64,000 bases of DNA. Origin: Chrysiogenes arsenatis DSM 11915. GTDB taxonomy: Bacteria; Chrysiogenota; Chrysiogenetes; Chrysiogenales; Chrysiogenaceae. A program made the position numbers and the translations under genes. The DNA is taken from NCBI RefSeq assembly GCF_000469585.1, contig NZ_AWNK01000006.1:184178-248177 (forward strand), read 5' to 3'. Within the stretch, counting starts at the first letter, position 1; every line of letters begins with the position of its first letter. The notes beneath the pieces are model-generated. The model saw only the letters and a program-made list of their open reading frames with translations. It ran no database searches and was not told the origin of the DNA. Shown here piece after piece: positions 26,062 to 47,910 of this stretch.

Positions 26062-27077
26062 GAGACCCCCCACGGTTTTGGTAGGAAAACAGCGTGATAC
26101 TGATCTAAAAGATAGCGATCGGTCATTCCTGCTACATGGTCACAGACCCTTCGTGCAGGTGAATCGCCATCCACGCTGATTGATGGGAGGGAGTTTATAT
26201 GCGAAAGGTAGTATTCGTAAAGTTCTTTTATAATCTTATAGGCCTTATCAAACTCAGTTTGAATAAACGGGTGAGGATAGACGTTTTCGTACATAAAATT
26301 TTTTAGCTCCTCAGTGGCCTGATTGATAGCTGAACTCATCGTAATCCGCTCATAATTCGCCGCTAAGGTCGCGGTAATAATATCGGTCACCATCGTATGA
26401 ATGCGTGCCCCATGGGTCGCACCAAGAAGATCCACTACCGCTTTGGGAAGTGCTGCCGAATCGAGCAGTCCGGCGCGCAAGGCATCGTCAATGTCATGAT
26501 TCAAATACGCCACCGCATCAGAAACGCGGACAATTTGCCCCTCCAGCGTCATAGGGCTTTTATCCGTTAGAATTTTCCCTTTCCCTTTGGAGTGCCGCAA
26601 AATACCGTCGCGCACTTCGGCGGTCAAGTTTAATCCCTGCCCTTCACGTTCTAAAATGTCCACTACGCGCAGACTTTGCACCGCATGATGAAACCCTCCA
26701 GCGTAAATATCTGCCAGCACTCGCTCCCCAGCATGCCCCATCGGGGTATGACCCAAATCGTGCCCCAGCGCAATCGCTTCGGTGAGATCCTCGTTCAGTG
26801 CTAACGCACGGGCGATAGTGCGGGCAATCTGCGCCACTTCCAACGTATGCGTCAGACGAGTGCGATAGTGGTCATTGGACGGCGAAAGAAATACTTGCGT
26901 TTTATGCTTTAAACGACGAAAGGATTTACAATGGAGAATGCGATCTCGATCACGTAAAAAATCGGTGCGGAAATCGCAGGCCAGTTCTTTATGCAAACGC
27001 CCCGCGCTTCGGCTTGCGAGCATAGCGGCCGGATGCAGGGTGAGCGATTCGCGGTGTTCAAGTTGGGTTCGTATCAT
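26058..27077 (-). CDS. dgt: dGTP triphosphohydrolase-like HD protein
   Basis: A 339-residue member of the deoxynucleoside triphosphatase group. The HD metal site is visible as [40 protein letters not shown] and [13 protein letters not shown]. It probably trims dNTP pools. The N-terminus [17 protein letters not shown] matches short-form family members, which supports 27077 as the start although no ribosome binding site is visible. It heads the nine-gene operon down to 17279. Its -10 element ends only 6 nt before the ATG. Confidence 0.92.
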
Positions 27078-28466: not shown

Positions 28467-31040
28467 TTACCGCTGCTGAAGTAATTGCATCAACCCCTGT
28501 GGCAACTGATTCGCCTGCGCCAGCATCGCTTGTGCCGCCTGACTGAGCATCTGCATAGAGGTGAACTTTGACATCTCCTCCGCCACATCAGTATCGCGGA
28601 TACGAGCTTCTGACGATTGCAGATTTTCTTCAGCCACACTCAAGCTGTTGATGGTGTGGTCAAGGCGGTTGGCAATCGCACCAAGCTTGGAACGCTCTGC
28701 CGAAACAAGGCTGATCGCCTTATCGATACTGGAAATGGCCGACTGAGCTGCCTCTTGCGACACCACCACGACATTCTCCAACCCTAAAGATTTCACATCC
28801 ACCTGCCCGATACTGGCATTCATCGTCTGCCCTTCGTTCGCGCCGATCTGGAAATCCATCGAACTATCAACCAAATGAATGTACATAGAGGTTGGTACAT
28901 TGGCTGAGGTGAACCGAACTTTTGCCGTAGTCGGATCCCACTCACCATTCACGCCAATGCTCCCTTGGAATTTCACGTCAATCCCTTGGATAACGTTTTC
29001 CATCACCCCATCGCCAACCACATCGCTCCCAATCGGGCTTCCTGTATGAGCATCAAACACACTGACTTGGTACACATTTTCTTGAGCTTTTTGCAGGCGC
29101 TGCAGGTTCAAACCGTCAATGACCCGCTGATCCGCAACCAAGCTGATTTCCCCTTGTACACCATTAAGCAAAGAGCGAATCAATAACGTCCCCTCAACTG
29201 CGGCATGGGTATTGGCAATCGCCGACCCTTTTCCGATAAAGTCAACACTGTGCGCATCGGTAGCAGTACTTCCAAGCGTAATGCCAAGACCAGAGACTTT
29301 TGACGTAATTGCCGTTTGAAATTTGATTTCAAGATCGCTCAGCGTGTCATCGGCTTCAAGGTAGATATCAACCGTCTTCCCATTCCCGTACAGGGTTACA
29401 CGCTGTGAAATATCAAAAGCATTCGTACCATCAGGCGTTGTAAACGTCTCGATATCGATCAATTTTGTGTAGCTTGAAGCGATCCCGCCCACACCACGAA
29501 TCTCCATATTCAAATCATTATCCACCATCGTTCCCGCCTGATTCGACTTGAGCGCCAGGGAGATAGAACCAATGGTTAATGAACCGTTACTTTCGTCCAA
29601 TTGCGCCAGATGATAGGTGATCTCTTTGTCGCCAGCCGTGAGCGCCGTGCTCTGCAATCCACCCGCCGTATACGTTACATAGTAGGCACCGCGAATTTCG
29701 CGTGGCGCACCTGTCGCCCCATCGTCAAAGCGCTCGTCAATCTTGATCGCTCCAGCCCCTATCGACATGGTGTCATTCAACGTCTCACCAGCATCAAGGC
29801 TCAATAACACTTTATCACCAGCCTTGATTTGGCTGCCGCTTCCAAAATAGAGGAGATTTTGACCGGCGATGGCCGTGTCAAAAATAGAGTTCACCGCACC
29901 GGAGCCACCTGTGGTAAGCACTTGCCAGCCGGAAACATCGTTTGCAGCAAGGTGTAAGCCACCGTTGGCGCTCATCGTAGCGTCCGCCCACTGACCCGTT
30001 TCGCCTGTTTTCACGTCAATAAAGCGTATACGTGCCGCTCCGGTAACCGCCCCAGCCGTTCCACCTGATGAATTCACCGCAATATCATGCATAAATTCGA
30101 CTTCTAAATATCCGTGTACGCCCGCCACCACGTTGATCCCTGAGCTCAGCACCAGAGAGTTATCTTGCAATACCGCCGTTTGCGACGAAGCCGTGCCACG
30201 GATACTGAAGCTCGACCCAACCTGTTGGTACATCCCCATCACGCCTGCCATGTCAGTGCCTGACGACCAGACTTCGCCCACCGGAACCCCAGAAATCCCC
30301 ATCGTCGCGCCGCTACTTTGGGCGGCCACGTTAATGCGATACGTCCGCTCGTCAATCGATCCAGAGCGAACCCCCTGCGCATCGATGATGGCGGTAATAC
30401 CCGAAGAATTCACCGCACCATTGGCACCACTGACACCCGCTGCGGTCAAAATATCGCCAGCGAAAGCTCCAGCACGCAACGTCATAATGTCAGACTTGAG
30501 CACCTGATTTGCGCCAACCTTGGTTGTCACATCAAGACGGTAGTTGCCACTGATAACGCGATCGCGGACAATCGCTTCGATTTTATCGCTATCAGAAGTT
30601 GACCAGCGTGCCGTAGCATCGCCATTCAAGAGCTTCTTTGTATTGAATTCGGTAGAAGTTGAGATACGGTCGATCTCATTTTTGAGCTGAAGAACTTCTT
30701 TTTGAATCTCTTCGCGGTCGTTAGAAGTGTACGTTCCGTTTGATGCCTGAACCGCAAGTTCACGCATCCGCTGCAAGATAGCGGTCGTTTCGCTGAGGGC
30801 ACCTTCCGCCGTCTGAATCAGCGAAATACCATCTTGAGCGTTGGAAACCGCGCGGGCAATCCCCCGAATCTGTCCGCGCATTTTTTCCGAAATTGCCAAA
30901 CCAGAAGCATCGTCAGATGCCCGGTTGATGCGCATGCCAGAGGAAAGACGTTCGAGAGATTTTGCCAAACTTCCCTGATTCACGCGGAGCGCGTTCTGGG
31001 AATTCATCGAGGCAATGTTGTTATAAATTGAGAGGGACAT
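28467..31040 (-). CDS. fliC: Flagellin, large form
   Basis: An 857-residue filament subunit; common lengths are 270-550. Residues 1 to about 145 ([40 protein letters not shown]) and the last 95 or so ([20 protein letters not shown] onward, ending in LMQLLQQR) are the conserved D0/D1 helices that bind FliS and TLR5. About 610 residues of variable D2/D3-type sequence lie between, rich in Gly, Ala, Ser, Thr and Asp. AAGGAGG precedes the ATG. A sigma-28 type promoter is upstream. No second flagellin gene is in the window. With pseC nearby, glycosylation of the exposed domain is plausible. Confidence 0.95.
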
Positions 31041-31191: not shown

Positions 31192-32862
31192 TCACACATA
31201 CGCACTCGCCAACTGATTACGGCTGTCGATAATAAATGCACAGAGGTTGCGCTGCACTTCCGCCGCTAATCGCGCCAAGTCGTTGGCCGCAAACGCCACC
31301 TCTTCGGAAACTTTCGCCGATTGCTCCGTTGCCGAAGAGATACACTGAATATCGTCGCTGACTTGATCGGAAGCCTTGTGAATTTCTCCCATAGCATTGG
31401 CATTCTGCGCAATCAGTTGATCAAGTGCCAGAATGCTGTTTAATACAACCTGAAATGAATTATTCGTATCACGCGACAGCGAAACGCCCTGCTGCACCTT
31501 ATTGTTGATAACATCCATAGCTTCAGTAACTTGCGTAACGCCACCCTGAATGGTTTTGACAATATCGATAATCTCCGCTGTCGATTGCGCACTCCGTTCC
31601 GAGAGTTTACGCACTTCGTCAGCAACCACAGCAAAGCCACGCCCAGCGTCGCCCGCTCGCGCAGCTTCAATCGCCGCATTGAGTGCCAAGAGATTGGTTT
31701 GATCGGCGATATCGCTGATAACCCGAATCACCTCTTCCACCCGCTTCGTATTCAACACCAACTGTGCGGTGAACTCAGTCGTTGTAACGACCTGCGTCGC
31801 AATCCCTTCCATCTCTTGCGCCGTCTGAGCCACCTTGCCACCACCATCACGCGCCGCATTCAGCGCTTGAACGGCATTGGTGCGCACGCGCTGATTATTT
31901 TCGCCTAACCCACTCACCGTCTGCGACATTTGCAGCGAAGCCGAAGCAATCTGCGATACGCTTTCAGCCTGTAAATTCATGGTTTGCGACATTTGTGAAG
32001 AAGAACTGCTCAGTTGTTCACTCGCCGACGCCACCCCTTCGGTACTCTGCCGCACACCGACAATAATATGTTGAACCTTTTCGATAAACTGGTTTACATA
32101 CCCCGCCACCTGCGCCAGTTCATCTTTGCCGCTCAGTGGAATACGCTTTGTCAGATCACCATCACCCGTAGCTAAATCGCGTGCCAGTGTTGCAATCGTC
32201 GACGTTGAACTGATGATAGTTTTCAAAATAAGCACCATCGGTACACCTGTCAGGAGCAACAGCACCCCGACAATCAGCGCCATCCGCTTCACTTCCGCCC
32301 ATAACAGAGCATTGATGTCGTCAATATACACTCCCGTCCCAATCACCCAACCCCAAGGCTCAAAACCAATTACATACGAAGCCTTTTCCACTGGACGATT
32401 AAAGCCCGGCTTCGGCCAAAAATAGTTCACCAGCCCCTGACCATCGCGACGTACCACTTCAACCATATCCACAAAAAGTTTCTTCCCGTTCGGGTCAGCA
32501 AAGTTACCGAGATCGGTTCCGTCAAGCTTTGGATTCGTCGGATGCATTACCATACGCGGCTGCATATCGTTGACCCAAATATAGTCGTTATCGCCATATC
32601 GCACAGCGCGCAACGCACGCAGCGCGTGATCTTTTGCCTGTTCCACACTGATTTCGCCCGCCTCTGCCTGCTGCCAATAATTCTGCACGACACTGTGTAA
32701 CGCTTGGGCCATTCCCATTACGGCATCGTTTTTAATCGTGTGCATATTGCGATTCAGCGCACTGAGCGAAACAGCCAGTAAGATAAACGTGCCAACCGCT
32801 GCCATACACATAAAAACCAAAAGCCGCCCTTTGATCATCTGTGGAAAAAATGGTAACTGCAT
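31192..32862 (-). CDS. Methyl-accepting chemotaxis protein with Cache sensor domain
   Basis: A 556-residue chemoreceptor: TM1 at about 12-32, a periplasmic single-Cache domain (about 40-190) with [15 protein letters not shown] and [18 protein letters not shown]2 at about 195-215, HAMP, and the cytoplasmic signalling hairpin with the invariant tip [21 protein letters not shown]. The start at 32862 has GGAG 6 nt before it. The Cache domain closely resembles that of the histidine kinase at 45959. There is no CheR-docking pentapeptide at the end. A sigma-54 type promoter lies about 77 nt upstream. Confidence 0.93.
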
Positions 32863-32938
32863 ACTCTGCTCCTTTTTCGGTAACATGTGAGAGCGTGGTG
32901 ATTGCTGAATGCCGATCACACGACCCTGCACTCTCTAT

Positions 32939-32954
32939 TACAAGGAGCATGCCA
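32939..32954 (-). promoter_or_regulatory. Sigma-54 type promoter of the Cache chemoreceptor
   Basis: On the minus strand TGGCATGCTCCTTGTA. GG and the -12 dinucleotide have exact 10-nt spacing, though the usual -12 GC is GT. The surrounding 26 nt (32930-32955) match the block at 35648-35673 at 25 positions, which supports a functional element. Confidence 0.65.
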
Positions 32955-33087: not shown

Positions 33088-33123
33088 AAAAGCCCCCGTC
33101 AAGCGTACTTGACGAGGGCTTTT
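33088..33123 (-). terminator. Terminator-like hairpin carrying the GTCAA-N6-TTGAC core
   Basis: AAAAGCCC, C, CGTCAAG, CGTA loop, CTTGACG, A, GGGCTTTT. It lies 33 nt after the stop of the chemoreceptor gene at 33157 and reads as a terminator on either strand. Its core CGTCAAGCGTACTTGACG (33097-33114) recurs at 35813-35830 and 36841-36858. Confidence 0.75.
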
Positions 33124-33156: not shown

Positions 33157-34791
33157 TTATCTTCTGGCAACCATTGCAGGCGATGATACCTGAAAGAATG
33201 AGACACTTTGTTGAACATCGGACGCCAGTGCGGCTAGGTCACTTGAGGCACGGGAAACCTCTTCCGAGGAACGCGCAGTCTGTTCTGACGCCGAAGCTAT
33301 CGCTTGAATATCTTCCGTAATCTGATCTGCGGTAACCGACATCTCTTCAACGGAAGCCGCATTCTGTATGATCAACTCTTGCAGCGTTTCCATGCCACCA
33401 ATGATTTCGGCAAAAGCCGCATCAGTTTCCTGCGCTAACACATTCCCATTTTGCGCTTTCGTGTTGACCAAATCCATCGAACTGACCACTTGGTCAACCC
33501 CACCTTGCATACTGACAACAATGGTATTGATTTCGCTGGTCGACTGCGCACTTCGCTCTGCCAGCTTACGCACTTCATCCGCAACCACCGCAAACCCTCG
33601 CCCGGCGTCTCCGGCACGCGCGGCTTCTATCGCCGCATTCAGCGCCAGCAGGTTTGTCTGCTCCGCAATGTCGTCAATCATACGGATGACTTCCTGCACC
33701 CGACCCGCTTTTTCTTCTAGTGAACGGGCATAATTTGACGCTTCCGCCACTTGTTGCGCGATGGAAATCATCTCTTTGGCCGACAATTTTACTTTCTGTC
33801 CCCCTTCGCGCGATAATTCAAGCGCCTCTACCGTGCTCTGCTGAATAGTATTCATATTGCCAGCAATGGCGCTTGATGTTTGCGCCATTTCCGTCGACGC
33901 GGAAGCGATTTGCGAAACCCGCTCGGCCTGTAAACTCATGCCAGAACTCATCTGCACCGAAGCGCTGCTTAACTCTTCGCTCGCAGATGCCACGCCCGTA
34001 GCCGTTTCATGAATTTGCTCCACGGTAGCGCGCAAACTTTCCACCATGCGATTCAACGCTAAGACCAGCAAACCAACCTCGTCGCGCTGTTTCACCGGAA
34101 GTGTCCGCGTCAGATCGCCCTGCGAAACGGCTGTGGCAAAATCTACCGAGTGATTTAATGGCCCGACAATCGTGCGAGTAATAAACCCCGCAATGAGCAC
34201 ACCAACAACAATCGCACCAAGTAACAATCCTATGGTTAACCATAAGTTGCGCTCATAACGACTCTGCGCACTTTCATACTCCACGCGCGCCACATTGAGT
34301 TGCACCTCGATAAGTTCGGCAAATTTATCCGTCAAGGGTTCTACCACTTGATAGAGTTCATCGTTGGCAAATGCCGCCAGTGCGCGCCCATCGCTATCAT
34401 AAAGAATTTTTTTCAATTTTTGGATGCTTGCCTCAGCGCGAGGCATCAAGGGACGGATCTGATCGATCAGCCGTGTTTCTTCTGCCACTAACTCCGTCGC
34501 TAAATAGCCACTCCACAACTTCGCAATCGCCTCTTCCGCATTTTCCACTAACTTTAATGCCGCGGCCATGGAGATATTGGCATTACGTGATTTATGGGTC
34601 GCATCGACAATATTGATCGCATACAGATCAGAAATCTGCTTTAAATCGCGCAGAGGAACAACGCGGTCGTGATACACGGTGTGTAATCCATCCTGACTCT
34701 CTTTCATGCTGGAAAGCCCAATTCCACCAACGACCACTAAAAAAACTACAAACGAAAATACCAAAACCATCTGCCTGTGCACGACTCGCAT
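33157..34791 (-). CDS. Methyl-accepting chemotaxis protein with four-helix-bundle sensor
   Basis: A 544-residue chemoreceptor: TM1 at about 8-28, an all-helical periplasmic domain (about 30-185; [20 protein letters not shown]) of the 4HB_MCP type, TM2 at about 187-207, HAMP, and a signalling domain with [21 protein letters not shown]. The cytoplasmic half is almost the same as that of the receptor at 43913, so these two are recent paralogues with exchanged sensors. It lies 28 nt after the HD-GYP gene and is probably in its operon. GGGGGG precedes the ATG. Confidence 0.93.
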
Positions 34792-34819: not shown

Positions 34820-35485
34820 TCATACCGCCCATAGGTCACGCGCGGGTGCGTCATCTAACTCACGACGAACCGACCACATATCTTCCTCGCAGTGGTAAAA
34901 TGCTGACACGACTGAAGGGTCAAACTGCCGCCCCATTTCGGCGGCGATAATCGTACGACACTGCGCTGGTTGATACTCATCCTTATAGCAACGTTTACTA
35001 CTGAGCGCATCAAAAACATCCGCTAACGCTACAATTCTGGCTGCAAAGGGTATCGATCCCCCACGAATCCCGTGTGGATAGCCAAGCGAATCATACCGCT
35101 CGTGATGATAAATCACGATATCGCGCGCCATATTAAATGCCTCGTGATCAACAAATTGATCGACCATATTTTCCAGCATATCGGCACCCAGCGTAGTATG
35201 CGTCTGAATTTGACGAAATTCATCCCGACTCAGCTTCCCCGGCTTCGTGAGAATTTCCGGCGAAATAGCGAGCTTCCCGATATCGTGAATGGCGGCAAGT
35301 GGAACAATATAGTTCCGCAACTGCGTGGTAACTTCGGGATGCCCCATCTCCCACAATTGCTCCGTCAGTATTCCGGCGTAATGTTGAACGCGGCGCACAT
35401 GTTCTTGCGTTTCGGTGCAATAGCCAATCGCCAGTGCATTCAATCCATTGCGCTTCGCTTTATTCGTAAACGGTGACGTAACCAT
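34820..35485 (-). CDS. HD-GYP domain cyclic-di-GMP phosphodiesterase
   Basis: A 221-residue protein that is little more than an HD-GYP domain: HVRRVQHYAG, the metal pair in AAIHDIGKLAISPEIL, KPGKLSRDEFRQIQTHT, YHHERYDSLGYPHGI with the GYP motif, and ALADVFDALSS. It should hydrolyse c-di-GMP to GMP. It has no receiver or membrane segment. The start at 35485 has GGAGGGGGG before it; a longer frame upstream is rejected because it runs through the promoter region. It is followed by a chemoreceptor, which suggests that c-di-GMP removal and taxis are expressed together. Confidence 0.9.
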   Translation of the reverse strand: MVTSPFTNKAKRNGLNALAIGYCTETQEHVRRVQHYAGILTEQLWEMGHPEVTTQLRNYIVPLAAIHDIGKLAISPEILTKPGKLSRDEFRQIQTHTTLGADMLENMVDQFVDHEAFNMARDIVIYHHERYDSLGYPHGIRGGSIPFAARIVALADVFDALSSKRCYKDEYQPAQCRTIIAAEMGRQFDPSVVSAFYHCEEDMWSVRRELDDAPARDLWAV

Positions 35486-35656
35486 ACTATCCCCCCTCCG
35501 CCCTCCTAAATGACGATTATACCTTCTGCGTACACGTGTTGACTGCTCTTTGTTCGCTCCCAAAGACACTATACTGAGTGTCGCATCGGCTTGACTGGTT
35601 GCTGTGCACATAAAGCACCTCTCCAAACTGGAAGTAATTCCTATGCGACTCTCTAT

Positions 35657-35672
35657 TACAAGGAGCGTGCCA
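35657..35672 (-). promoter_or_regulatory. Sigma-54 type promoter of the HD-GYP and chemoreceptor operon
   Basis: On the minus strand TGGCACGCTCCTTGTA: an exact TGGCACG-N4-TTG with the -12 C changed to T. It begins an untranslated leader of about 160 nt. It shares 25 of 26 nt with the promoter at 32939. Confidence 0.72.
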
Positions 35673-35727
35673 AACCGTAAACCACTCATTTTTAATACCT
35701 TACGCGAACAAAATGCCTCTCGAACGG

Positions 35728-35749
35728 TTGACCAATGCCAATTGACCAA
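35728..35749. repeat. Two direct TTGACCAA half-sites
   Basis: TTGACCAA occurs at 35728-35735 and again at 35742-35749, 14 nt apart, about 80-105 nt upstream of the expected sigma-54 start site. The half-site is the same as in the neighbouring dyads, so this may be part of an activator-binding region. Confidence 0.45.
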
Positions 35750-35803
35750 AAGCGCATTGCGACATAAGTCGTTTTTTCATAGTCACTTTCATGCGACCAA
35801 CAG

Positions 35804-35833
35804 AAAAAGACCCGTCAACATAGATTGACGGGT
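35804..35833 (-). terminator. Terminator of the kinase-like gene, with GTCAA-N6-TTGAC core
   Basis: On the minus strand ACCCGTCAA, 6-nt loop, TTGACGGGT, then CTTTTTC. It lies 30 nt after the stop at 35863. The core (35813-35830) is the same type as at 33097 and 36841, and it is also about 176 nt upstream of the next sigma-54 start. Confidence 0.8.
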
Positions 35834-35862
35834 GGTATAGTGATCGCATGTGGCACTTCTCT

Positions 35863-36621
35863 TTACGCGGGTTGCTGCATGCAAAAGAGCGGTACTATCA
35901 TTACTAACGAAAGCGTGGCACCGATCGCGTCATACGTATAACTCAATTCCGCACCTTCTATGGCCTGGCGTAGTAAACCGCGCAGGAGCCGTGCGCGGGA
36001 ATCAGATTCATCAATCACAACCGAGTGGGCAAGTATCTCAACCCGTATGGCATCAGGCTGTGATGCTAAGCGAAAGCATAGCATTGGCACCACATCGGGC
36101 TGGCGATCCTTTACCGCAGCCACCATACGGTTCAACCATGCCAAAATGCCCAGTGCGGCATGAAACAGCTTGGCGGAATCGGCAAGCACATAGTTTTTCC
36201 GTGCAAGCAGGGCACACGCCTCATTGTGCGACGCTCTCATGTGCCGCGAAATATTCAGCCGCTCTGCCACCGCAACTGGTTTACCGCAGAGCTCCAGCAC
36301 AATATTATTGTGCCGCAACAGAGCAGCAGAGGCATCAAGCACCATCTCAATAACACTATTCAGGTCAACCGGTTCGGGATCTCTGCCAAGCGCAAAGGTA
36401 TGCTGAATGGTATCAAGACACTGCAAAATTTCCTGAATCCCCTCACTGGCTTTTTTCGGCCATAATCCAGCGGATTCATTTGCCTGAAATGTGTTATCAA
36501 GCGCCAAGGCAACAATATTGGACGGCTGGCGCAATCGTTGCAGCAGCAACGCCATAACGTCGTGTTGGTGGCGTTGCAGCTCTTCAATCGAAAACAACGC
36601 TGTATAATGTGGTGCCAACAT
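35863..36621 (-). CDS. Histidine-kinase-like protein without catalytic boxes
   Basis: A 252-residue soluble protein. The segment VDLNSVIEMVLDASAALLRHNNIVLEL resembles the end of a kinase dimerisation region, and the last 100 residues resemble a decayed ATPase fold. I find no H-box histidine in context, no N-box, and no DxGxG or GxG loops. It could be a kinase-derived adaptor, an anti-kinase or a decaying gene, yet it has GGGAGG 6 nt before its ATG and its own consensus sigma-54 promoter, which favour function. It lies between the sigma-54 activator and HD-GYP genes. Confidence 0.6.
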   Translation of the reverse strand: MLAPHYTALFSIEELQRHQHDVMALLLQRLRQPSNIVALALDNTFQANESAGLWPKKASEGIQEILQCLDTIQHTFALGRDPEPVDLNSVIEMVLDASAALLRHNNIVLELCGKPVAVAERLNISRHMRASHNEACALLARKNYVLADSAKLFHAALGILAWLNRMVAAVKDRQPDVVPMLCFRLASQPDAIRVEILAHSVVIDESDSRARLLRGLLRQAIEGAELSYTYDAIGATLSLVMIVPLFCMQQPA

Positions 36622-36675
36622 GGCATGCCTCCCGTTGCAACGTAGGGGAGTGAGTTCCCGAAACGCGCATCAGAA

Positions 36676-36691
36676 GTGCAAAGAGACTGCC
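36676..36691 (-). promoter_or_regulatory. Sigma-54 promoter of the kinase-like gene
   Basis: On the minus strand TGGCAGTCTCTTTGCA, with GG-N10-GC exact and TTGCA intact. The start site would be near 36665, giving a leader of about 45 nt. Confidence 0.8.
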
Positions 36692-36738
36692 ATCAATGTT
36701 TCTTTGTTTACTAATAGTTACAAAAAGACAAACGTTCA

Positions 36739-36764
36739 TCGGGGTCAACCTATATTGACCCCGA
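36739..36764. promoter_or_regulatory. Perfect 10-bp-arm dyad, candidate activator site
   Basis: TCGGGGTCAA and TTGACCCCGA flank CCTATA. Its centre is about 85 nt upstream of the predicted sigma-54 start near 36665, a usual enhancer position. No T-run follows on the minus strand, so a terminator role is less likely. Confidence 0.6.
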
Positions 36765-36824
36765 CACGAAAAAAACAACATCAGAAATGGTTACTTAACG
36801 ATAAAAAAACGACTTACAACGATA

Positions 36825-36858
36825 ATCAACCATCATTGACCGTCAATCAGCGTTGACG
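36825..36858. promoter_or_regulatory. Two abutting dyads of the GTCAA-N6-TTGAC type
   Basis: ATCAACCATCATTGAC (36825-36840, imperfect) and CGTCAATCAGCGTTGACG (36841-36858, perfect) abut each other and overlap the stop codon of the response regulator gene. They sit 167-185 nt upstream of the sigma-54 start near 36665. Confidence 0.55.
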
Positions 36859-38273
36859 CTCCCATTTCCTTTTTTCAACTTCTGACTGAGCGCCTGTTTC
36901 GATATTCCCAGCAATGAAGCGGCTTTGCTCTGCACACCATCCGTAAGTGTCAACGCTGCGCTGACCGCAAAATCCTCAACCTCCTTCAGGGTGGGAAAAT
37001 ACCCGAAAACGCCGCTTAACACACAGCCATTCCCCGCACCGCCAACCGGCTCACCTTCTAACGACGAGTGCAGCTCGGAATGCTCACGAATATTCGCTGC
37101 CATGTGCACCAGCTCCAGCCGCTCACCACACCGCGCAACAGCATCAAAAACCAACGTCTCTAACTCGCGCACGTTTCCCGGAAAGGCGTAACTGCGCAAA
37201 AACGAAACCAACTCAGGAGCAATCGTTGGCGCGGGGCGTTGATAACTTTCCGCTGTCCGCTCAACAAAATGGTTCAGCAACAGTGGGATATCTTCTGGAC
37301 GGTCACGCAACGGTGGTATAATGACAGAGTGCGTCCGAATCCGGTACAACAAGTCCTTCCGGAAAACCCCTTCCGTCGTCGCTTCAATTAAATCACGATT
37401 GGTTGCCAAAACAACGCGGGCATTGGTCGAACGCAACGAATCAGAACCCACCGGGTAGTAGCGACGATCCTGCAAGAGGCGCAGTAACTTCACCTGACTT
37501 GCCTCGCTCAGCTCTCCGATTTCATCCAGAAAAAGGGTTCCATTTTCGGCTTGTGCAATCAACCCTTCACGCGACCGTTCTGCGCCAGTAAAGGCCCCTT
37601 TCACATGACCAAATAGCGTGTCCGAAAACATCGTGTCATCTAGCCCCGCAATATTGACCGCCACAAACTGACCCGTCCGGCCAGACGCACAGTGCACGGC
37701 TTCCGCAAAAAGCTCTTTGCCCGTTCCGGTCTCCCCGTTAATCAATACTGGTTGAGGCGAACAGGAAATCGCTTCGATATAGCGGAACAACGCGTGCATC
37801 CGGCTACTCTGCGACACGATGCGCGAAAATGCTTTATTATGCTGAACTTGCGAGTTATCCAGCACCATATGCTGCAAAGAGCGCAACTGACCGCGCAAGC
37901 CGCTCACTTCAATCGCCTTCTCCACCGTCGCCAAGAGCCGTTTTTTATCTACCGGCTTGACAAGATAATCGAACGCACCACTCTTCATGCAGCCGAGCGC
38001 CGTATCGACATCATTGACCGCCGTCATCATCACCATAACCGTATCCGGCATCGCTAAACTCAGCTCGCCCAACAGCTCCTGCCCACTCATATGCGGCATG
38101 ATCAGATCAATAATCGCGACCTGCGAACGATGTTTTTGCGCAGCTGCCACTGCCAGTCTCGGATCAGAGACCAGTTGCAGATTGCGAAAACCGGCCGAAT
38201 AGAGCGCTGCTTTCGTAGAAAAAAGACTATCTTCTTCATCGTCAACAACAAGAATCGCAATATCCTGTTCCAT
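36843..38273 (-). CDS. NtrC-family sigma-54 activator response regulator
   Basis: A 476-residue regulator in three parts. The receiver (1-125) has the Asp11-Asp12 pair, phosphoacceptor Asp56 in IIDLIMP, and Lys in YLVKPVD. The AAA+ domain (about 145-370) has Walker A GETGTGKE, the sigma-54-contacting loop GAFTGA, Walker B GTLFLDEIGELS and the arginine finger region. The C-terminal Fis-type helix-turn-helix is near 440-470 (AASLLGISKQALSQKLKK). It should remodel sigma-54 polymerase when phosphorylated by the kinase gene upstream, 42 nt away. GAAGGAGGGG precedes the ATG. Sigma-54 promoters and dyads nearby are its likely targets. Confidence 0.95.
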   Translation of the reverse strand: MEQDIAILVVDDEEDSLFSTKAALYSAGFRNLQLVSDPRLAVAAAQKHRSQVAIIDLIMPHMSGQELLGELSLAMPDTVMVMMTAVNDVDTALGCMKSGAFDYLVKPVDKKRLLATVEKAIEVSGLRGQLRSLQHMVLDNSQVQHNKAFSRIVSQSSRMHALFRYIEAISCSPQPVLINGETGTGKELFAEAVHCASGRTGQFVAVNIAGLDDTMFSDTLFGHVKGAFTGAERSREGLIAQAENGTLFLDEIGELSEASQVKLLRLLQDRRYYPVGSDSLRSTNARVVLATNRDLIEATTEGVFRKDLLYRIRTHSVIIPPLRDRPEDIPLLLNHFVERTAESYQRPAPTIAPELVSFLRSYAFPGNVRELETLVFDAVARCGERLELVHMAANIREHSELHSSLEGEPVGGAGNGCVLSGVFGYFPTLKEVEDFAVSAALTLTDGVQSKAASLLGISKQALSQKLKKGNGSVNAD

Positions 38274-38315
38274 ACTGCCCCTCCTTCATCAATCAAATTC
38301 ATGGAAACCTATTCC

Positions 38316-40643
38316 CTACTTCCCGACTGGTAAGAGTAAACGGAACGTCGCCCCTGCCCCGACAGTTGACTCAACAACAATACTACCACCATGCTCTTCA
38401 GCGGTCGCACGTGAAATCGACAATCCCAAACCCGTGCCACCGCGTCCACGTTTGGTAGTATAAAACGGCTCGAAGAGGCGCGCCAGTGTTTCGGTGTCAA
38501 TACCGCATCCGTTATCGCGCACTTCGACAGCCAGCATATCGTCACCTTTCAATCGATATGTCGCCACGGTTATTTCCCCGCGCTTTTCGGGAACGGCTTC
38601 CAGCGCATTCATAATGAAATTAATGATGATTTGCTCCAACCGCGCCGCACTTCCGCGCACCGTTGGCAGATTTTCCCCTAACTCGAAACGTAAAGCCACC
38701 GCCCGTTTTTTCGTTTCGCTTGCCAGCATAGACGTTGCACCATGCACCACATCGTTGAGCTGCACCGGCTCGTTGAGGGACATCTTATCTTGCGTCGAAA
38801 AAGCTTTTAAGTGCTCAACAATCCCTTTAATGCGCTCCGTTGCACGATGAATACGCGCCAACATTTCTGGAACCTCATGACGCAATTCGGGGTACGTAAA
38901 ACCACCCGCACTAAAATCCTCCAGCGTCTCCACGTGTTGCGGTAAACTACGGATCATATCGCGCCAGATATCGTCTAACACCGACGTATTGAGCATGATA
39001 AAGCTATTGGGGTTATTGATTTCATGCGCTACTCCAGCGCTTAACTGCCCCAACAGGGATAGGTGCGCCGTGCGCATGGCATCCTGCTGCATCTGCACCC
39101 GCTGTGTGATATTGCGCGATATCGTAATAAACGTGGCAATCTCTTTCTTGGTGTCAAAGCTTCCGGGAGCCGCATTAACTTCCCACGTTGTCGCGCCGAG
39201 GGTAATTATTCCTGTACTTTTGCGCCTTCCTGCTACATAGGCTTCGATAGGACAGGTCTCGCAGGGCTCTGTGCGCCCTTGTAGTATCTCGTAACACCGC
39301 TTTCCGGGAAGCATTGATGCTGGCTGGCGATAAAACTCTGCGGCACCATCATTCGCCCACCGAATCACATATTCACGGTCAACTTCAACAATGGCATCGG
39401 GAATAGCATCCAGTAAAGCGCGGAATTGTTCCGAAAGCTTCTGGTAGCGCACCTGATTCGCGCGCAACGCATTTTCGATCATTTTCACGCGCGTTACATC
39501 CTGTATCGTTCCCATCATCCGTAGCGGCGTTCCCGAGTCGTCAAATTTCACTTCGCCCCGCTCGTGGACATACTTCAACGTACCATCAGCGAGGATAATA
39601 CGGTGATCGATGCTGTAGGGGCGTTTTTCCTCCAGCGCCAGCCGAACACTCTCTTCCACAAAATGACGATCTTCAGGATGAACGTACCCGAGAAACGCTT
39701 CGTAGGTTTCTTCAAATTCACGCGGAATCAGCCCGAAAATACGGTAGACCTCATCCGACCAGTACAGACTTCCGTCCTGAATCAGCCACTCCCAGTTGCC
39801 GATACTGGCAAGCTGTTGTGCCTCCAACAGGCGTGATTTTGTATCGCGAAAGGCCAAAAGCGCGCGAGCCATTCTGCCAAAATCCCCATCGGAATGTTTT
39901 TGCAGCGCTTCAATAGCGGGAAGCTCGGGCAAATGGTTCTTGTCGCGCGAAAGGTCAAACAGTGCATTGGCAATCACGCGCAACTTTTGACTCACGCTCG
40001 CGGTGATAAGCAGCGCCAACATCAGTATAAGAAAGAGTGCAACACCGCCGACTATCATAATTTGCGTTAGGTACTGCCGCGACTCACGTGAAATGCTCTC
40101 GATACGCACACTCGCGCGCTCCACAAAAAGCTGGCTGATACGGTGCGGATAGAGGGTGAAATTCGCAAAGTGCTGCCCTGCCGCATCAAGATAGTGGTGC
40201 GACATCGTGTAATCGACCGCGGCAATGTCAGTCGCTTGCAGCACAAAACGGCGGTATTCGTGAAACTCATGCACCAACGCGGCCGCACTCGACTCGTCAA
40301 TTTCCTGAAGTAAATCAGAGTGAGCGAGGTGCGCCACACGTTCACCAAATTGATTCAGCTCTTCGACAAACTCAGCATGCAGGAAATAGAGTTGCAACTC
40401 AGAGAGCGCTCTCTCTTCCGCCTTTTCCAGCGTTGCCACCACACGCATATGCAGCAAACTCATCCCTTCGCTGAACTTGGCCGCATCGCGAATAACTTGT
40501 AAATCATTATGCTGCAATGCAGAAGCGGACTGCTGCCGTTCATCTACGGTGCGAATGGACCAATACCCCAACGCCAATGTCAGCAGAATGACAAAAAGAG
40601 CTGGCAACAAAAAGAGTAATATCAGGTTGCGGCTAGCGCTCAT
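38316..40643 (-). CDS. Membrane PAS-PAS histidine kinase with novel N-terminal sensor
   Basis: A 775-residue kinase: TM1 at about 8-30, an all-helical periplasmic region (about 35-190), TM2 at about 195-217, a linker, PAS (about 285-395, with PAC), a second PAS (about 410-525) with a CETCPI cysteine pair, HisKA with LGQLSAGVAHEINNPN, and HATPase with NFIMNALEAV, RDNGCGI and GGTGLGLSI. The periplasmic domain and linker closely resemble residues 1-285 of the GGDEF-EAL protein. The start is ATG in the overlap with that gene (ATGA). It is the evident partner of the sigma-54 activator downstream. Confidence 0.93.
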   Translation of the reverse strand: MSASRNLILLFLLPALFVILLTLALGYWSIRTVDERQQSASALQHNDLQVIRDAAKFSEGMSLLHMRVVATLEKAEERALSELQLYFLHAEFVEELNQFGERVAHLAHSDLLQEIDESSAAALVHEFHEYRRFVLQATDIAAVDYTMSHHYLDAAGQHFANFTLYPHRISQLFVERASVRIESISRESRQYLTQIMIVGGVALFLILMLALLITASVSQKLRVIANALFDLSRDKNHLPELPAIEALQKHSDGDFGRMARALLAFRDTKSRLLEAQQLASIGNWEWLIQDGSLYWSDEVYRIFGLIPREFEETYEAFLGYVHPEDRHFVEESVRLALEEKRPYSIDHRIILADGTLKYVHERGEVKFDDSGTPLRMMGTIQDVTRVKMIENALRANQVRYQKLSEQFRALLDAIPDAIVEVDREYVIRWANDGAAEFYRQPASMLPGKRCYEILQGRTEPCETCPIEAYVAGRRKSTGIITLGATTWEVNAAPGSFDTKKEIATFITISRNITQRVQMQQDAMRTAHLSLLGQLSAGVAHEINNPNSFIMLNTSVLDDIWRDMIRSLPQHVETLEDFSAGGFTYPELRHEVPEMLARIHRATERIKGIVEHLKAFSTQDKMSLNEPVQLNDVVHGATSMLASETKKRAVALRFELGENLPTVRGSAARLEQIIINFIMNALEAVPEKRGEITVATYRLKGDDMLAVEVRDNGCGIDTETLARLFEPFYTTKRGRGGTGLGLSISRATAEEHGGSIVVESTVGAGATFRLLLPVGK

Positions 40644-42808
40644 GACGCCCCCAAGCGGGCAGAGTTTCGCAACCGTTGGGTGAACTCTTGCGCCGGAATC
40701 GGACGGCAGAAAAAGTACCCCTGAAATGCGCGGCACCCTTGCGACATCAGAAATTCCACCTGTGCCGCCGTCTCAACCCCTTCGGCAACCACCTCTAAAT
40801 TCAGGGCATGACTCATAGCAATGATGGTTTTGACAATCGCCGCATCTTCAGGGTTATCGTGAATATCGCGCACAAATGACTGATCAATTTTCATCTGATC
40901 GAGCGGCAGCCGCTTCAGATATTGCAGCGACGAATACCCCGTACCAAAGTCATCCATCGAAAACGTAATCCCGCTCCGCTTGATCTCCTGCATTTTGGCA
41001 ATCGTCTCTTCGACGCGCTCCAACACCGCGCTTTCGGTGAGCTCCAGCTTCAAGCGGTCGGCGCGAGCCCCGGTTTCATGTACTATCCGCCCGATATGTT
41101 TCACCAGCGCCGGATCTTTAAACTGCCGTGCACTCATATTGACTGCCAGCGTGAGGTGCGCTGACTCTGGCCGTTGCTGCCACGCTACCAATTGCTGACA
41201 CGCTGTTTCCAACACCCAATACCCGATCGGAACAATCAAGCCCGTCTCTTCGGCCAGTGGAATAAAATCAGCGGGCGACACCACACCTCGCACGGGATGA
41301 TGCCAGCGTAGCAATGCTTCGGCACCAAAAGGACGACCTTCGCCATCCACCTGAAGTTGGAACACCAAACGGAATTCCTTCTTTTCCAACGCTTGCTGCA
41401 AATCGTGTTCCAGCGACGTGCGATACTCCAGTGTGGCCTGAAGGGCGGGATCGTAAAAACGGATGGTATTGCGACCGGCATTTTTCGCCTGATACATGGC
41501 GGCATCGGCACATTTAAACAGCTCTTCCGCATCGTGCGTACCATCCTGAAACAGCGCAACACCAATACTCGGCGTCACGCGGTACCCCTCGCCGTCAATC
41601 ACATACGGCACACTTAACGACAGTCGCACCTGTTCTGCAAACAACTCTACTCGGTGTACCGCTTGGGCGCGATTCACTCCCAGAGTATCGAGCAGCAAAG
41701 CAAACTCGTCACCACCAAAACGTCCCATCGTCAACATTCCTTCAGCAACGGCCAACGTACGTAAACGAGCGGTAACTTCTTGTAAAAGTTTATCGCCAAT
41801 ACTATGCCCACGGGTATCGTTCACCGTTTTGAAATTATCGAGATCCAAATAGAGCAAAGCGCCATAATGGCCGGAACTGGTGCAGAATTGCAGAGCGTGG
41901 TTGATGTATTCACTCAATAAATGGCGATTCGGCAACCCCGTCAGCGTATCGTAGTGCGCCAGATAATGCGCTTGCTGCTCCGCTTCACGCCGCCGCACTT
42001 CGGCATCGCGAAGTGCCAGCAGAGCCTGCGCCACCTGCCGTACTTCACCCTTCGCTTGTTGCGCCAGAGCGTCGACTTCAGGGAGCGGTGGAAATTTTCC
42101 ATCGGACAGAGCAAGATCACTCAGCGCGTCGGTAATAACACGCAAATTGCGACCAATGAGTCGACCCGAAAAAAGTGCCGACAAAACCATGAACACTAAA
42201 CTGAGCCCGCCAGCCCAAGCGACCCAGGAAAAATAGTCGTACAGCATTTCCATGGCTTTTGCATGGCGAATGTCCGCTCTGGCGGACAAGAGTTCTGTAA
42301 TGCGGTGGGCATAGCTAGAAAAATTGATAAAGTGTTTCTGTGCCGCATCAATGTAATTTTCCGCCGTGGAAGGGTCGATAGCGGCAATATCCGTCGCCAT
42401 AATCACAAAATACTGATACCGCTGAAATTCCTGCAACAGCGCCACGGTGCTGCCATGATTTACTTCGCGTAACAGTTCTGACGCGGCAAGCGCTTCGGCT
42501 TCGAGCAAACGAGCTGACAACATATCAACAATTGTCCCATGACGGTAATACAGCTCAATTTCCGAACTTGCCCCTCGGCGGGCAAGTTCGAGTGTGGCAG
42601 TTATGTGCTTATGTAAATCCCCCACACTACGACTGAACTGTGCCGCAGCGTGAATGGTCTGTAAATCGCGCGCTTGCGACGCACTGACGTCAACATAGTG
42701 CCCTTTCAAAGTCGAAAACGACCAATACCCGAAGGCAAACGCCAGCATGACGACCAACATCGCCGGAAAAAGAAACGCGAACAAAAGGTTTCTGCTGGTC
42801 GCTTTCAT
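40640..42808 (-). CDS. Membrane GGDEF-EAL protein with novel N-terminal sensor
   Basis: A 722-residue c-di-GMP enzyme: TM1 at 8-28, helical periplasmic region (30-190), TM2 at about 193-215, a linker, GGDEF domain (about 283-450, motif RFGGDEF intact at 363-369) and EAL domain (about 465-715, with EAL at 497-499 and DDFGTGYSSL). Both active sites look complete; the RxxD inhibitory site before GGDEF is absent. The sensor shares ATDIAAID, YIDAAQKHF and YAHRITEL blocks with the kinase encoded next. It starts 3 nt after the phosphatase stop and overlaps the kinase start. Confidence 0.94.
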   Translation of the reverse strand: MKATSRNLLFAFLFPAMLVVMLAFAFGYWSFSTLKGHYVDVSASQARDLQTIHAAAQFSRSVGDLHKHITATLELARRGASSEIELYYRHGTIVDMLSARLLEAEALAASELLREVNHGSTVALLQEFQRYQYFVIMATDIAAIDPSTAENYIDAAQKHFINFSSYAHRITELLSARADIRHAKAMEMLYDYFSWVAWAGGLSLVFMVLSALFSGRLIGRNLRVITDALSDLALSDGKFPPLPEVDALAQQAKGEVRQVAQALLALRDAEVRRREAEQQAHYLAHYDTLTGLPNRHLLSEYINHALQFCTSSGHYGALLYLDLDNFKTVNDTRGHSIGDKLLQEVTARLRTLAVAEGMLTMGRFGGDEFALLLDTLGVNRAQAVHRVELFAEQVRLSLSVPYVIDGEGYRVTPSIGVALFQDGTHDAEELFKCADAAMYQAKNAGRNTIRFYDPALQATLEYRTSLEHDLQQALEKKEFRLVFQLQVDGEGRPFGAEALLRWHHPVRGVVSPADFIPLAEETGLIVPIGYWVLETACQQLVAWQQRPESAHLTLAVNMSARQFKDPALVKHIGRIVHETGARADRLKLELTESAVLERVEETIAKMQEIKRSGITFSMDDFGTGYSSLQYLKRLPLDQMKIDQSFVRDIHDNPEDAAIVKTIIAMSHALNLEVVAEGVETAAQVEFLMSQGCRAFQGYFFCRPIPAQEFTQRLRNSARLGAS

Positions 42809-42811
42809 ATC

Positions 42812-43456
42812 TTACTGCCAGGGTGGGGGGAGCAGCAGTTCATCCCACTGCTCGGGGCGAACGCTCCCGACATATTCGAAGGAATCCGCACCAAGCGGGC
42901 GCACTACCACCAACGTCCCTTCCGGAGGGAAATAGTTCATGATTTCGGCCATATTCGGCCCGTGAGCAACGAGTGCCCGGTTTTTCCCCGCCGTTGTCAC
43001 CGGCAATGACACCAGTTCGCGCGTACGCTGAATTACCGGTGTTTTTTCGACTCGAGTCATGGCAGCGGTATATTTCAGCAACTCTTCCACAACAATTTCG
43101 CGCTCCCCGAAAGCAGCCTGCGCACTTTCAATCGCCCGACAAAACGGACTCACATATATTTCGCCTACCGGAAAACCTGCCTGCGCAATACTTTGACCAA
43201 TAAACGCCATCTGTTTCCGCCCTTCAGTCGTCAACGGACGCTGCGTAGAACAATCATTCAGATCAACCGGAACCTGATCGGGAATAGCGGAGTCAGTTAT
43301 GCCATGACGCAAGTAGAGCACATACCCACCCTGTTGCACCGCATGAATCGTCTGCGCATCAAGTGGTGACTCCCGAAAGGTCTCCGCCAAAGAGGGGAGA
43401 ACCGTACCTACACACAACCCCAAAGCTACCAGACATTGAAGAACACGATGTGACAT
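42812..43456 (-). CDS. Periplasmic histidine phosphatase superfamily protein
   Basis: A 214-residue exported protein with signal peptide (1-24, SLA-ET) and a phosphoglycerate-mutase-like fold: Arg50-His51-Gly52 (LRHGITD) as the phosphohistidine site, Arg107 in SPFCRAIESAQ, and the second catalytic His165 in VAHGPNM. It is shorter than acid phosphatases or phytases and its substrate is unknown. It is first gene of the operon with GGDEF-EAL, kinase and sigma-54 activator. A periplasmic phosphatase at the head of such an operon could generate or remove the ligand sensed by the two membrane proteins, which is inference only. Confidence 0.85.
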   Translation of the reverse strand: MSHRVLQCLVALGLCVGTVLPSLAETFRESPLDAQTIHAVQQGGYVLYLRHGITDSAIPDQVPVDLNDCSTQRPLTTEGRKQMAFIGQSIAQAGFPVGEIYVSPFCRAIESAQAAFGEREIVVEELLKYTAAMTRVEKTPVIQRTRELVSLPVTTAGKNRALVAHGPNMAEIMNYFPPEGTLVVVRPLGADSFEYVGSVRPEQWDELLLPPPWQ

Positions 43457-43475
43457 TTCCCCCTCCTGATCAACA

Positions 43476-43493
43476 TAGTGATAAGAATCACTA
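43476..43493. promoter_or_regulatory. Palindromic operator over the signalling operon promoter
   Basis: TAGTGATAAGAATCACTA, 7-bp arms with a 4-nt centre, overlaps the -10 element and the predicted start site. A repressor bound here would block transcription. It has some likeness to metal-repressor (Fur-type) boxes, but not enough to name one. Confidence 0.6.
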
Positions 43494-43518
43494 TAAAATA
43501 GCTTGCGGCGCCAATCAA
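43490..43518 (-). promoter_or_regulatory. Sigma-70 promoter of the phosphatase-GGDEF-kinase-regulator operon
   Basis: On the minus strand TTGATT, 17-nt spacer, TATAGT. The start would lie about 27 nt before the phosphatase ATG. Thus the operon itself is not sigma-54 dependent. Confidence 0.65.
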
Positions 43519-45958: not shown

Positions 45959-47467
45959 TCACACAACGTCTGTAGTTCTCAGTGTAATACAAAACTCTGC
46001 GCCACCGTCAGTGTTGCGCGCCTGAATGGTTCCACCCATTTTGGCAACAATCTGCCGGCAGAGCGAAAGACCAATCCCCGTTCCATGCTCCCCTTTGGTT
46101 GAGGTGAAAGAATCAAAAAGAGCATCAGGAAGGAGTTCGTCGGGAATGCCGCCACCATTATCACGCACGGTGAAACGAAGCATACCTTCGCTGACACTGG
46201 CCGTGATCGTGATCATCCGCTCATCTACCTTGCGTTCCTGAAACACGTCGCGCGAATTATGGATCAGGTTCAAAAACACCTGCTTAAACTCATTTGGGCA
46301 ACCGTAGACCTGCGGGGATACTTCCGAAGGGAAAAAGGTTAATATAACCTTATCGCGCATCAGTTGCCCACGCATCAATTCCAGCACATCACGAATCTGT
46401 TGCTGCGGGCAAAAGTTTCTGGTCTTATCTGACGGCTTATAGAAGTTGCGGAAGTCGTCGACCGTCTGCGCCATATAATCAACCTGCTGCTGAATATGCG
46501 TGGTGGAGAACTCCAGCTCCTCTTTTGTCAGCTCACCGGAACGGTAGAGTTCTGCCAGATCAGCCGCCAGTAAATTGATGTTGTTGAGCGGCTGTTTCCA
46601 CTGGTGCGCTATTGCCCCCACCATACCGCCAATTTCGGCCAGCTTGGCCTGCTGAATCATCGCCTGCTGTTCTCGATGTGCTTTTTCGATGTACTGATTC
46701 ATATATTTGGCAACCTGTGCCAGTTCGTCTTCGCCACTGAGGGAAATCCGTTTCGATAAATCGGCATCACCAGCCGCTAGCTTGCGTGCTTTATCCGTAA
46801 TTGCCGCCGTAGACAGGACGATCATACGCACAATCGCAATCATAGGTACTGCCGTAACGAACAGCATGATGGCAATAATTATGGCCATGCGTTGCACTTC
46901 AACCCAGAGCATCGCGTTAATGTCGTCGATATAAACGCCCGTGCCAATTACCCAACCCCACGGCTGAAAACCCATGATGTACGAAGACTTAGGCACCGGA
47001 TCACCAAAGCCGGGCTTCGGCCAGTAATAATCGACATGCCCTTTTCCGTCGCGCTGCACAACAGCTAGCATTTCCATAAACAACCGTTTACCATGGGGAT
47101 CAGCGTAATGTGTTAAGTCTGCGCCATCAAGTTCTGGAGTAGTCGGGTGCATGACCATTCGCGGGTGCATATCATTGACCCAAATATATTCGCCATCGCC
47201 ATATCGCATTGAGTGCAGTGTACGCAAGGCACGTTGCTGTGCAACTTCGGTCGTTATTTCACCAGATTGCACCATCTGCCAATAGCTCTCAACAATGCTA
47301 TACGCCGCCTGGGTCATCTCTTCCACTGCACGATTTTTAATGCTGTACATGTTGTGGTTTAACGTGAAAAGAGAAATAGCAATCAGCGCGACAGTGCCGC
47401 AAATGGCCACACCAAAAAAAGCGAGGAGTCGACCCTTAATAGTTTTTGGGGAAAACGGCAATCGCAC
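45959..47467 (-). CDS. Cache-domain histidine kinase
   Basis: A 502-residue membrane kinase: TM1, single-Cache sensor (about 45-190; YIWVNDMHPRMVMHP and [16 protein letters not shown]), TM2, HAMP, dimerisation domain with H-box GAIAHQWKQPLNNI, and HATPase with NLIHNSRDV, DNGGGI and GTGIGLSL. No receiver follows and no response regulator gene adjoins. The sensor plus HAMP is a clear paralogue of the chemoreceptor at 31192, so one ligand may drive both taxis and gene control. The start is taken as GTG at 47467, with AAGGAG 7 nt before it; longer upstream frames lack a ribosome binding site. Confidence 0.9.
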   Translation of the reverse strand: MRLPFSPKTIKGRLLAFFGVAICGTVALIAISLFTLNHNMYSIKNRAVEEMTQAAYSIVESYWQMVQSGEITTEVAQQRALRTLHSMRYGDGEYIWVNDMHPRMVMHPTTPELDGADLTHYADPHGKRLFMEMLAVVQRDGKGHVDYYWPKPGFGDPVPKSSYIMGFQPWGWVIGTGVYIDDINAMLWVEVQRMAIIIAIMLFVTAVPMIAIVRMIVLSTAAITDKARKLAAGDADLSKRISLSGEDELAQVAKYMNQYIEKAHREQQAMIQQAKLAEIGGMVGAIAHQWKQPLNNINLLAADLAELYRSGELTKEELEFSTTHIQQQVDYMAQTVDDFRNFYKPSDKTRNFCPQQQIRDVLELMRGQLMRDKVILTFFPSEVSPQVYGCPNEFKQVFLNLIHNSRDVFQERKVDERMITITASVSEGMLRFTVRDNGGGIPDELLPDALFDSFTSTKGEHGTGIGLSLCRQIVAKMGGTIQARNTDGGAEFCITLRTTDVV

Positions 47468-47910
47468 GATTTGGCTCCTTGTATGCCACTTTAGAAAATT
47501 GGCAATTGAATAAAGATACCGAATATGCAAAGCGCACAAACGTACATCCAGCGAACATGCGTTACATAGCTGCGGAATATAATGCATTGATACTGACGAC
47601 GCAAAGTAATTGTGAAAAAATATAGCGGTTGCGCTGCAAGTGACTCCGTTCGCCTACTCTTCACCTGACAAGATACTACATGGTAACATTGAGATACCAC
47701 ATCATCTCTGGCTCGCCATCACTCACGATATCCGTTGACCTGATAATACAAGCAAGAGATAAGAACCCATTTCAAGCGCAATAGTTTTGCCACTGTACAA
47801 CATCACTATTTACATTATAATCTGTTGCAATAAAAGACTATAACCTTTCACTACACTCATTCATCTTCTCTTCACGAACCCGTGTATACATGATAAAAGC
47901 AAAAAATAAA
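47468..47910. other. Non-coding region of about 440 nt
   Basis: Separates the Cache kinase (minus) from the merR gene (plus). AT-rich with no credible gene, no tRNA and no clear hairpin. The kinase promoter must lie here, but no convincing sigma-70, sigma-54 or sigma-28 match was found. Confidence 0.4.

Follow-up and report, generated by a model that had tools for sequence, protein, structure and literature searches.

A signalling locus of Chrysiogenes arsenatis with a putative sigma-54 regulon of its own and an exchangeable periplasmic input

Genes for c-di-GMP turnover, two-component signalling and chemotaxis lie side by side in Chrysiogenes arsenatis DSM 11915. Do they form one circuit, and does this circuit control its own neighbours? 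We analysed a stretch of 64,000 nucleotides (the window, to which positions refer unless another locus is named) and compared it with the genomes of Desulfurispirillum indicum and of G001, a third genus of the Chrysiogenaceae. With moderate confidence, and on the strength of sequence comparison, we consider that the locus as a whole would best be explained by a sigma-54 regulon confined to it and fed by a periplasmic input that can be exchanged.

Gene content of the operon

Four tightly packed genes on the minus strand open the locus. The first encodes a periplasmic histidine phosphatase (42812–43456; PF00300, E = 1.9e-6) with a predicted signal peptide. Three nucleotides after it follows the gene for a GGDEF-EAL protein (40640–42808) that carries an N-terminal sensor in residues 1–270, and this gene overlaps that of a PAS histidine kinase (38316–40643) by 4 nt (ATGA). 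A sigma-54-dependent response regulator (36843–38273) is encoded 42 nt further on. Given gaps of 3 and 42 nt and the 4-nt overlap, co-transcription of the four genes is likely, confirming the single operon of this composition that had been proposed by an earlier reading of the DNA without database searches (the sequence-only reading).

The kinase comprises the sensor module that it shares with the GGDEF-EAL protein, PAS_3, PAS_4, HisKA and HATPase_c domains. The regulator consists of REC, an AAA+ domain with Walker A and GAFTGA motifs, and a Fis-type helix–turn–helix (HTH_8); an RpoN gene is present in the genome. The translation of the GGDEF-EAL gene contains intact RFGGDEF and EALLRW motifs (Pfam E = 5e-41 and 1e-75), and the protein is 50% identical over 703 amino acids to a Gallionellaceae protein that is also encoded after a phosphatase gene. 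From such intact motifs we infer that the enzymes of the locus could both synthesize and break down c-di-GMP.

An sCache_2 histidine kinase (45959–47587, minus strand), the kinase core of which is 46% identical to the kinase that opens the D. indicum locus, is probably an outer member of the locus. The sCache_2 domain is a second sensor common within the locus, as it occurs on this kinase and on a chemoreceptor predicted to be under sigma-54 control (31192–32931).

The shared sensor and its phosphatase

The N-termini of the GGDEF-EAL protein and the kinase are 40% identical over approximately 270 amino acids, which supports the earlier suggestion that both sense through a shared module. The sensor has no Pfam domain. 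Its structure model (pLDDT 85) is a double-transmembrane four-helix bundle. Among solved structures, NarQ and 4HB chemoreceptor domains resemble it most (VC1313, target TM-score 0.80), and every one of these matches has a weak E-value; a sequence search of the PDB with the sensor found no relative. In the phosphatase, the catalytic residues R50, H51, R107 and H165, which match the signature of histidine phosphatase branch 1, are invariant in 13 homologues. This invariance suggests an active enzyme, beyond a mere binding protein.

Searching a genome collection with the sensor identified four distant loci, in Gallionellaceae, a gammaproteobacterial MAG, Phaeospirillum and Magnetococcales, and the phosphatase gene lies directly upstream of the sensor gene in all four. 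Eleven more close homologues came from a search that used only the phosphatase and covered the families or class to which three of these four genomes belong. At each of these eleven proteobacterial loci the phosphatase is directly followed by the same sensor module, and an HD-GYP response regulator is adjacent in ten (REC-HD_5 domains were confirmed for those scanned). Several of the eleven are closely related and therefore represent about three lineages, not eleven independent events. There are also diverged phosphatase–sensor pairs, with PAS-GGDEF-EAL (L106 and L107), PAS kinase (L108) and chemoreceptor (L110) outputs. Most of the more distant phosphatase homologues (E of about 1e-40 or higher) have no sensor partner and lie beside unrelated genes, so we limit the claim of pairing to the close subfamily and the four diverged pairs. 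At L110 (8627–11072), the chemoreceptor encoded after the diverged phosphatase homologue carries a diverged sensor.

These loci bear on whether the phosphatase is simply a scavenger that happens to be encoded in the same operon, with the sensor binding its ligand alone. Histidine phosphatases are indeed widespread, and the unrelated surroundings of the more distant homologues are in keeping with such a role. However, the close subfamily precedes the sensor in 11 of the 11 loci that the phosphatase-only search recovered from three proteobacterial lineages, whatever the output domain, and we regard independent scavenging as unlikely.

We tentatively propose that the secreted phosphatase and the four-helix-bundle receptor may work together as a general-purpose sensor of two proteins, with an active enzyme producing or presenting the signal. 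In different phyla, such a unit could have been exchanged between c-di-GMP enzymes, hybrid kinases and chemoreceptors. In Chrysiogenes it could have been doubled, putting a c-di-GMP enzyme and a sigma-54 motility regulon under the control of a single phosphatase.

Downstream genes and sigma-54 promoters

Downstream of the operon, and on the same strand, are genes for a degenerate histidine-kinase-like protein (35863–36621), an HD-GYP domain protein (34820–35611; PF13487, E = 7e-23), a chemoreceptor with a 4HB_MCP_1 domain (33157–34791) and the chemoreceptor with an sCache_2 domain (31192–32931), which is 55% identical to the syntenic D. indicum chemoreceptor. A large flagellin of 857 amino acids (28467–31040, minus strand; 57% identity in D. 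indicum) borders the locus in both genera. Outside these genes, a 494-amino-acid open reading frame at 24589–26073 has no Pfam match.

The HD-GYP protein contains the motifs HDIGK and HHERYDSLGYP, which match the HD, HHE and GYP signatures and predict c-di-GMP hydrolysis. In the degenerate kinase, which has no Pfam or NCBIfam match, the H-box histidine is replaced by Q (S in D. indicum), and the N and G boxes are absent in both genera. The profile match to the DHp region of kinases is weak (E = 6e-4); this protein and its homologue in the D. indicum locus both align with that region of AHQW-type kinases, with the histidine replaced. The match between the two homologues is weak but significant (E = 7e-6), and their genes occupy the same place behind the same kind of promoter. 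A kinase-like fold is weakly suggested by the profile match; an AlphaFold model from a two-sequence input was of low confidence (pLDDT 36).

The sequence-only reading placed a kinase-like gene, an HD-GYP gene and a chemoreceptor gene directly downstream, each behind a sigma-54 type promoter. We find −24/−12 elements, all on the minus strand, before the degenerate kinase (TGGCAGTCTCTTTGCA, 36677–36692), the HD-GYP gene (TGGCACGCTCCTTGTA, 35657–35672) and the sCache_2 chemoreceptor (TGGCATGCTCCTTGTA, 32939–32954). The chemoreceptor with its own promoter is therefore the sCache_2 one; for the adjacent 4HB chemoreceptor no separate promoter was seen, and it appears to be co-transcribed with the HD-GYP gene 28 nt before it. 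Because its promoter sits within the longest open reading frame, the HD-GYP gene should start at the ATG at 35611 or later, and the true start of the sCache_2 chemoreceptor is probably downstream of the listed GTG.

None of these promoters is individually significant by consensus, because chance matches are common in the window (57 matches with at most two mismatches, against 41 ± 7 expected). Their credibility comes from their conservation in D. indicum, where TGGCATGGATATTGCT is the counterpart before the degenerate kinase, and from the confinement of TGGCAYGCTCCTTGYA to the locus in both genomes. With at most one mismatch, TGGCAYGCTCCTTGYA has two occurrences in the C. arsenatis genome, one ahead of the HD-GYP gene and the other ahead of the sCache_2 chemoreceptor, and a single one in that of D. 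indicum, ahead of the syntenic chemoreceptor–HD-GYP operon. A near-match to the promoter in G001 (L031/L048) was set aside, as it lies outside any comparable gene arrangement in a genome that lacks the palindrome described below.

A palindrome at fixed distances from the promoters

Upstream of the promoters we identified copies of a palindrome, GTCAA-N6-TTGAC, as putative activator sites. Three precede the degenerate kinase, at 36842–36857 (GTCAACGCTGATTGAC), 36825–36840 (one mismatch) and 36744–36759 (GTCAATATAGGTTGAC), centred at about −182, −165 and −84 relative to its inferred start. Relative to the HD-GYP transcript, GTCAATCTATGTTGAC (35814–35829) is centred at about −174 and a degenerate copy with two mismatches (35731–35746) at about −91. 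At the sCache_2 chemoreceptor the distal palindrome alone is intact (GTCAAGTACGCTTGAC, 33098–33113; about −176 to the transcript). The D. indicum palindromes are centred at −167 and −84 for the degenerate kinase, and at −163 and −76 for the chemoreceptor–HD-GYP operon. Spacing is thus fixed across five promoters in two genera, at approximately 170 and often also approximately 85 bp upstream.

The D. indicum genome contains four exact copies, and every one is in the syntenic locus: the degenerate kinase and the chemoreceptor–HD-GYP operon are each preceded by two. Four of the seven exact copies in the C. arsenatis genome (2.825 Mb in 22 contigs) are in the locus, and the G001 genome contains none. 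The remaining three C. arsenatis copies lie inside the coding sequences of a cytochrome, a mutase and a kinase, and were dismissed as chance occurrences. When the intergenic regions of C. arsenatis and D. indicum are compared, they match mainly at the palindromes and promoters, with only a few short, weak matches elsewhere. Sets of shuffled intergenic DNA contain approximately 0.002 palindromes each, whereas 4 are seen per genome in the real regions; the chance figure is post hoc because the motif was spotted in the same sequences before the genome-wide count; the genome-wide confinement of the palindrome in D. indicum is a stronger, independent check. The regulators of the two genera have a near-identical helix–turn–helix and recognition helix. 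The promoters, together with a palindrome that is specific to the locus and keeps its spacing in both genera, support the earlier idea that the cluster would control its own neighbours, and comparison makes a predicted regulon of the cluster's own well supported.

Two of the C. arsenatis palindromes lie directly past gene ends. GTCAATCTATGTTGAC is also the stem of a terminator-like hairpin (35810–35833) after the degenerate kinase gene, so a single sequence may act as activator site and terminator.

The palindrome might serve another activator, such as a FleQ-like flagellar master regulator, with the response regulator acting elsewhere. FleQ boxes have identical half-sites (GTCAAT and ATTGAC; PMC10723142), the flagellin gene borders the locus in both genera, and 13 other strong sigma-54 activator genes in the genome encode candidate binders. 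The FleQ box, however, is a 14-bp GTCAAT-N2-ATTGAC sequence with a gap of 2 nt between hexamers (PMC10723142), whereas all exact sites here span 16 bp, a spacing 2 bp longer. Furthermore, the palindromes surround only genes that adjoin this regulator and none was found upstream of the flagellin gene, and R185, the arginine after Walker A that FleQ needs to bind c-di-GMP, corresponds to E in the C. arsenatis regulator and R in that of D. indicum. We therefore judge control by a FleQ-like protein to be quite unlikely.

Core regulon and input cassette

Gene order in D. indicum divides the proposed locus-specific regulon into two parts. The locus there begins with a kinase, an SBP_bac_3-PAS-PAS kinase, a small receiver, the regulator and the degenerate kinase, and continues with a dCache_3 chemoreceptor, HD-GYP, CheW (called by reading the translation), an sCache_2 chemoreceptor and, on the other strand, flagellin. 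The regulator is 63% identical to its syntenic counterpart, the output half of the kinase (residues 264–775) is 49% identical to the D. indicum kinase, and the HD-GYP protein is 53% identical over 94 amino acids to the HD-GYP part in the D. indicum locus (L027). In place of the shared sensor, the D. indicum kinase has SBP_bac_3. The sensor module is absent genome-wide from D. indicum, and the phosphatase and GGDEF-EAL genes are absent from its locus. Two genes of the D. indicum locus, for the small receiver (L026, 13553–13861) and the CheW-like protein (L027, 368–890), are absent from that of C. arsenatis.

The seven gene families of the sequence-only reading are therefore not one conserved unit. 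Synteny holds for the kinase output domains, regulator, degenerate kinase, HD-GYP protein and chemoreceptors, and does not extend to the phosphatase, GGDEF-EAL protein and shared sensor. Because D. indicum keeps the former without the latter, we describe the locus as a core regulon with an exchangeable input cassette. G001 lacks a close kinase orthologue and the degenerate kinase as well as the palindrome, and has a sensor hybrid kinase beside a phosphatase remnant, with an HD-GYP response regulator nearby. This remnant (L028, 14157–14345) is the C-terminal part of the phosphatase only, directly upstream of the sensor hybrid kinase, which suggests that the cassette was once complete there.

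Synteny also bears on whether the kinase and regulator are an AtoSC-like pair, the targets of which would be the neighbouring acyl-CoA and CoA-transferase genes at 49–64 kb. We consider this very improbable. Although AtoC is the top NCBIfam match of the regulator and AtoS the second of the kinase, both fall short of the equivalog cut-offs (326 versus 714 for the regulator, 211 versus 646 for the kinase). Genes for CoA-transferase, acyl-CoA dehydrogenase, ETF and thiolase are nearby, and one palindrome occurs in the acyl-CoA cluster 0.6 kb beyond the end of the window, but this copy is within the mutase coding sequence. In D. indicum, none of the four palindromes is outside the locus, and CbiQ and ABC transporter genes are found just upstream instead. 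That the palindromes are mere transcription terminators in a chance run of common signalling genes is hardly credible: one is a terminator-like stem and signalling genes frequently cluster, but the D. indicum palindromes are followed by no T-run and are paired at fixed distances from promoters, and gene order is conserved between the two genera.

Proposed mechanism

In the locus-specific regulon that we favour, the secreted phosphatase would be the partner of the four-helix-bundle receptor, and would probably make, remove or present its ligand. The receptor, duplicated onto the GGDEF-EAL enzyme and the histidine kinase, would couple both to one signal, which could thereby set c-di-GMP and gene expression together. 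The kinase would phosphorylate the response regulator, as the operon, the synteny and the conserved pair suggest. The regulator would bind the GTCAA-N6-TTGAC sites, the architecture of which is seen near −170 and −85, and would activate the RpoN promoters of the degenerate kinase, the HD-GYP and chemoreceptor unit, and the sCache_2 chemoreceptor. The likely outcome would be a decrease in c-di-GMP and an increase in chemoreceptors, favouring motility.

The induced degenerate kinase may feed back on the regulator or its kinase, a weakly supported guess. The precedent is the pseudokinase DivL, which is reported to read the phosphorylation state of a response regulator (PMC4211667).

The locus is a compact example, open to testing, of how a single periplasmic input may govern a second messenger together with a transcriptional programme that reduces this messenger and supplies chemoreceptors. 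The recurring phosphatase–receptor pair provides a way into an orphan sensor domain that Pfam lacks, as knowing what the phosphatase consumes or releases should indicate the ligand. Finally, for a phylum whose regulatory biology is almost a blank, the palindrome defines a predicted site of the regulator and a predicted regulon.

Comparison with known systems

None of the components is new in kind. How they are wired together, and the phosphatase–receptor pair that recurs, appear undescribed in the open-access literature that we searched, which yielded no account of either the pair or the cluster.

Systems of the NtrC family (AtoSC and ZraSR type) similarly combine a PAS kinase with a REC-AAA+-HTH_8 activator, RpoN promoters and upstream palindromic sites. 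The regulator locus shares this sequence architecture, with upstream sites at which binding is predicted and −24/−12 promoters, but differs in its site, GTCAA-N6-TTGAC, and in its candidate targets, which are the neighbouring degenerate kinase, HD-GYP gene and chemoreceptors. FleQ of Pseudomonas, a c-di-GMP-responsive sigma-54 activator, likewise links c-di-GMP, motility and sigma-54 and has GTCAA/TTGAC half-sites. Here, in contrast, the site is 16 bp long, the regulator has a phosphorylatable receiver and a kinase in its operon, and the position equivalent to R185 differs between the two orthologues.

On the input side, the periplasmic phosphatase TpbA of Pseudomonas aeruginosa acts on a membrane diguanylate cyclase, TpbB (YfiN) (PMC2691606, PMC4409338). 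TpbA is a dual-specificity tyrosine phosphatase, whereas the enzyme here belongs to the histidine-phosphatase superfamily and matches PF00300 only. The receptor here is a four-helix bundle that kinases also carry, and a diverged version of it occurs on a chemoreceptor. Systems of the TorT–TorS and LuxP–LuxQ type have a secreted partner that is encoded beside its membrane receptor. The secreted partner in C. arsenatis differs from these in having an intact phosphatase active site in place of a periplasmic-binding-protein fold.
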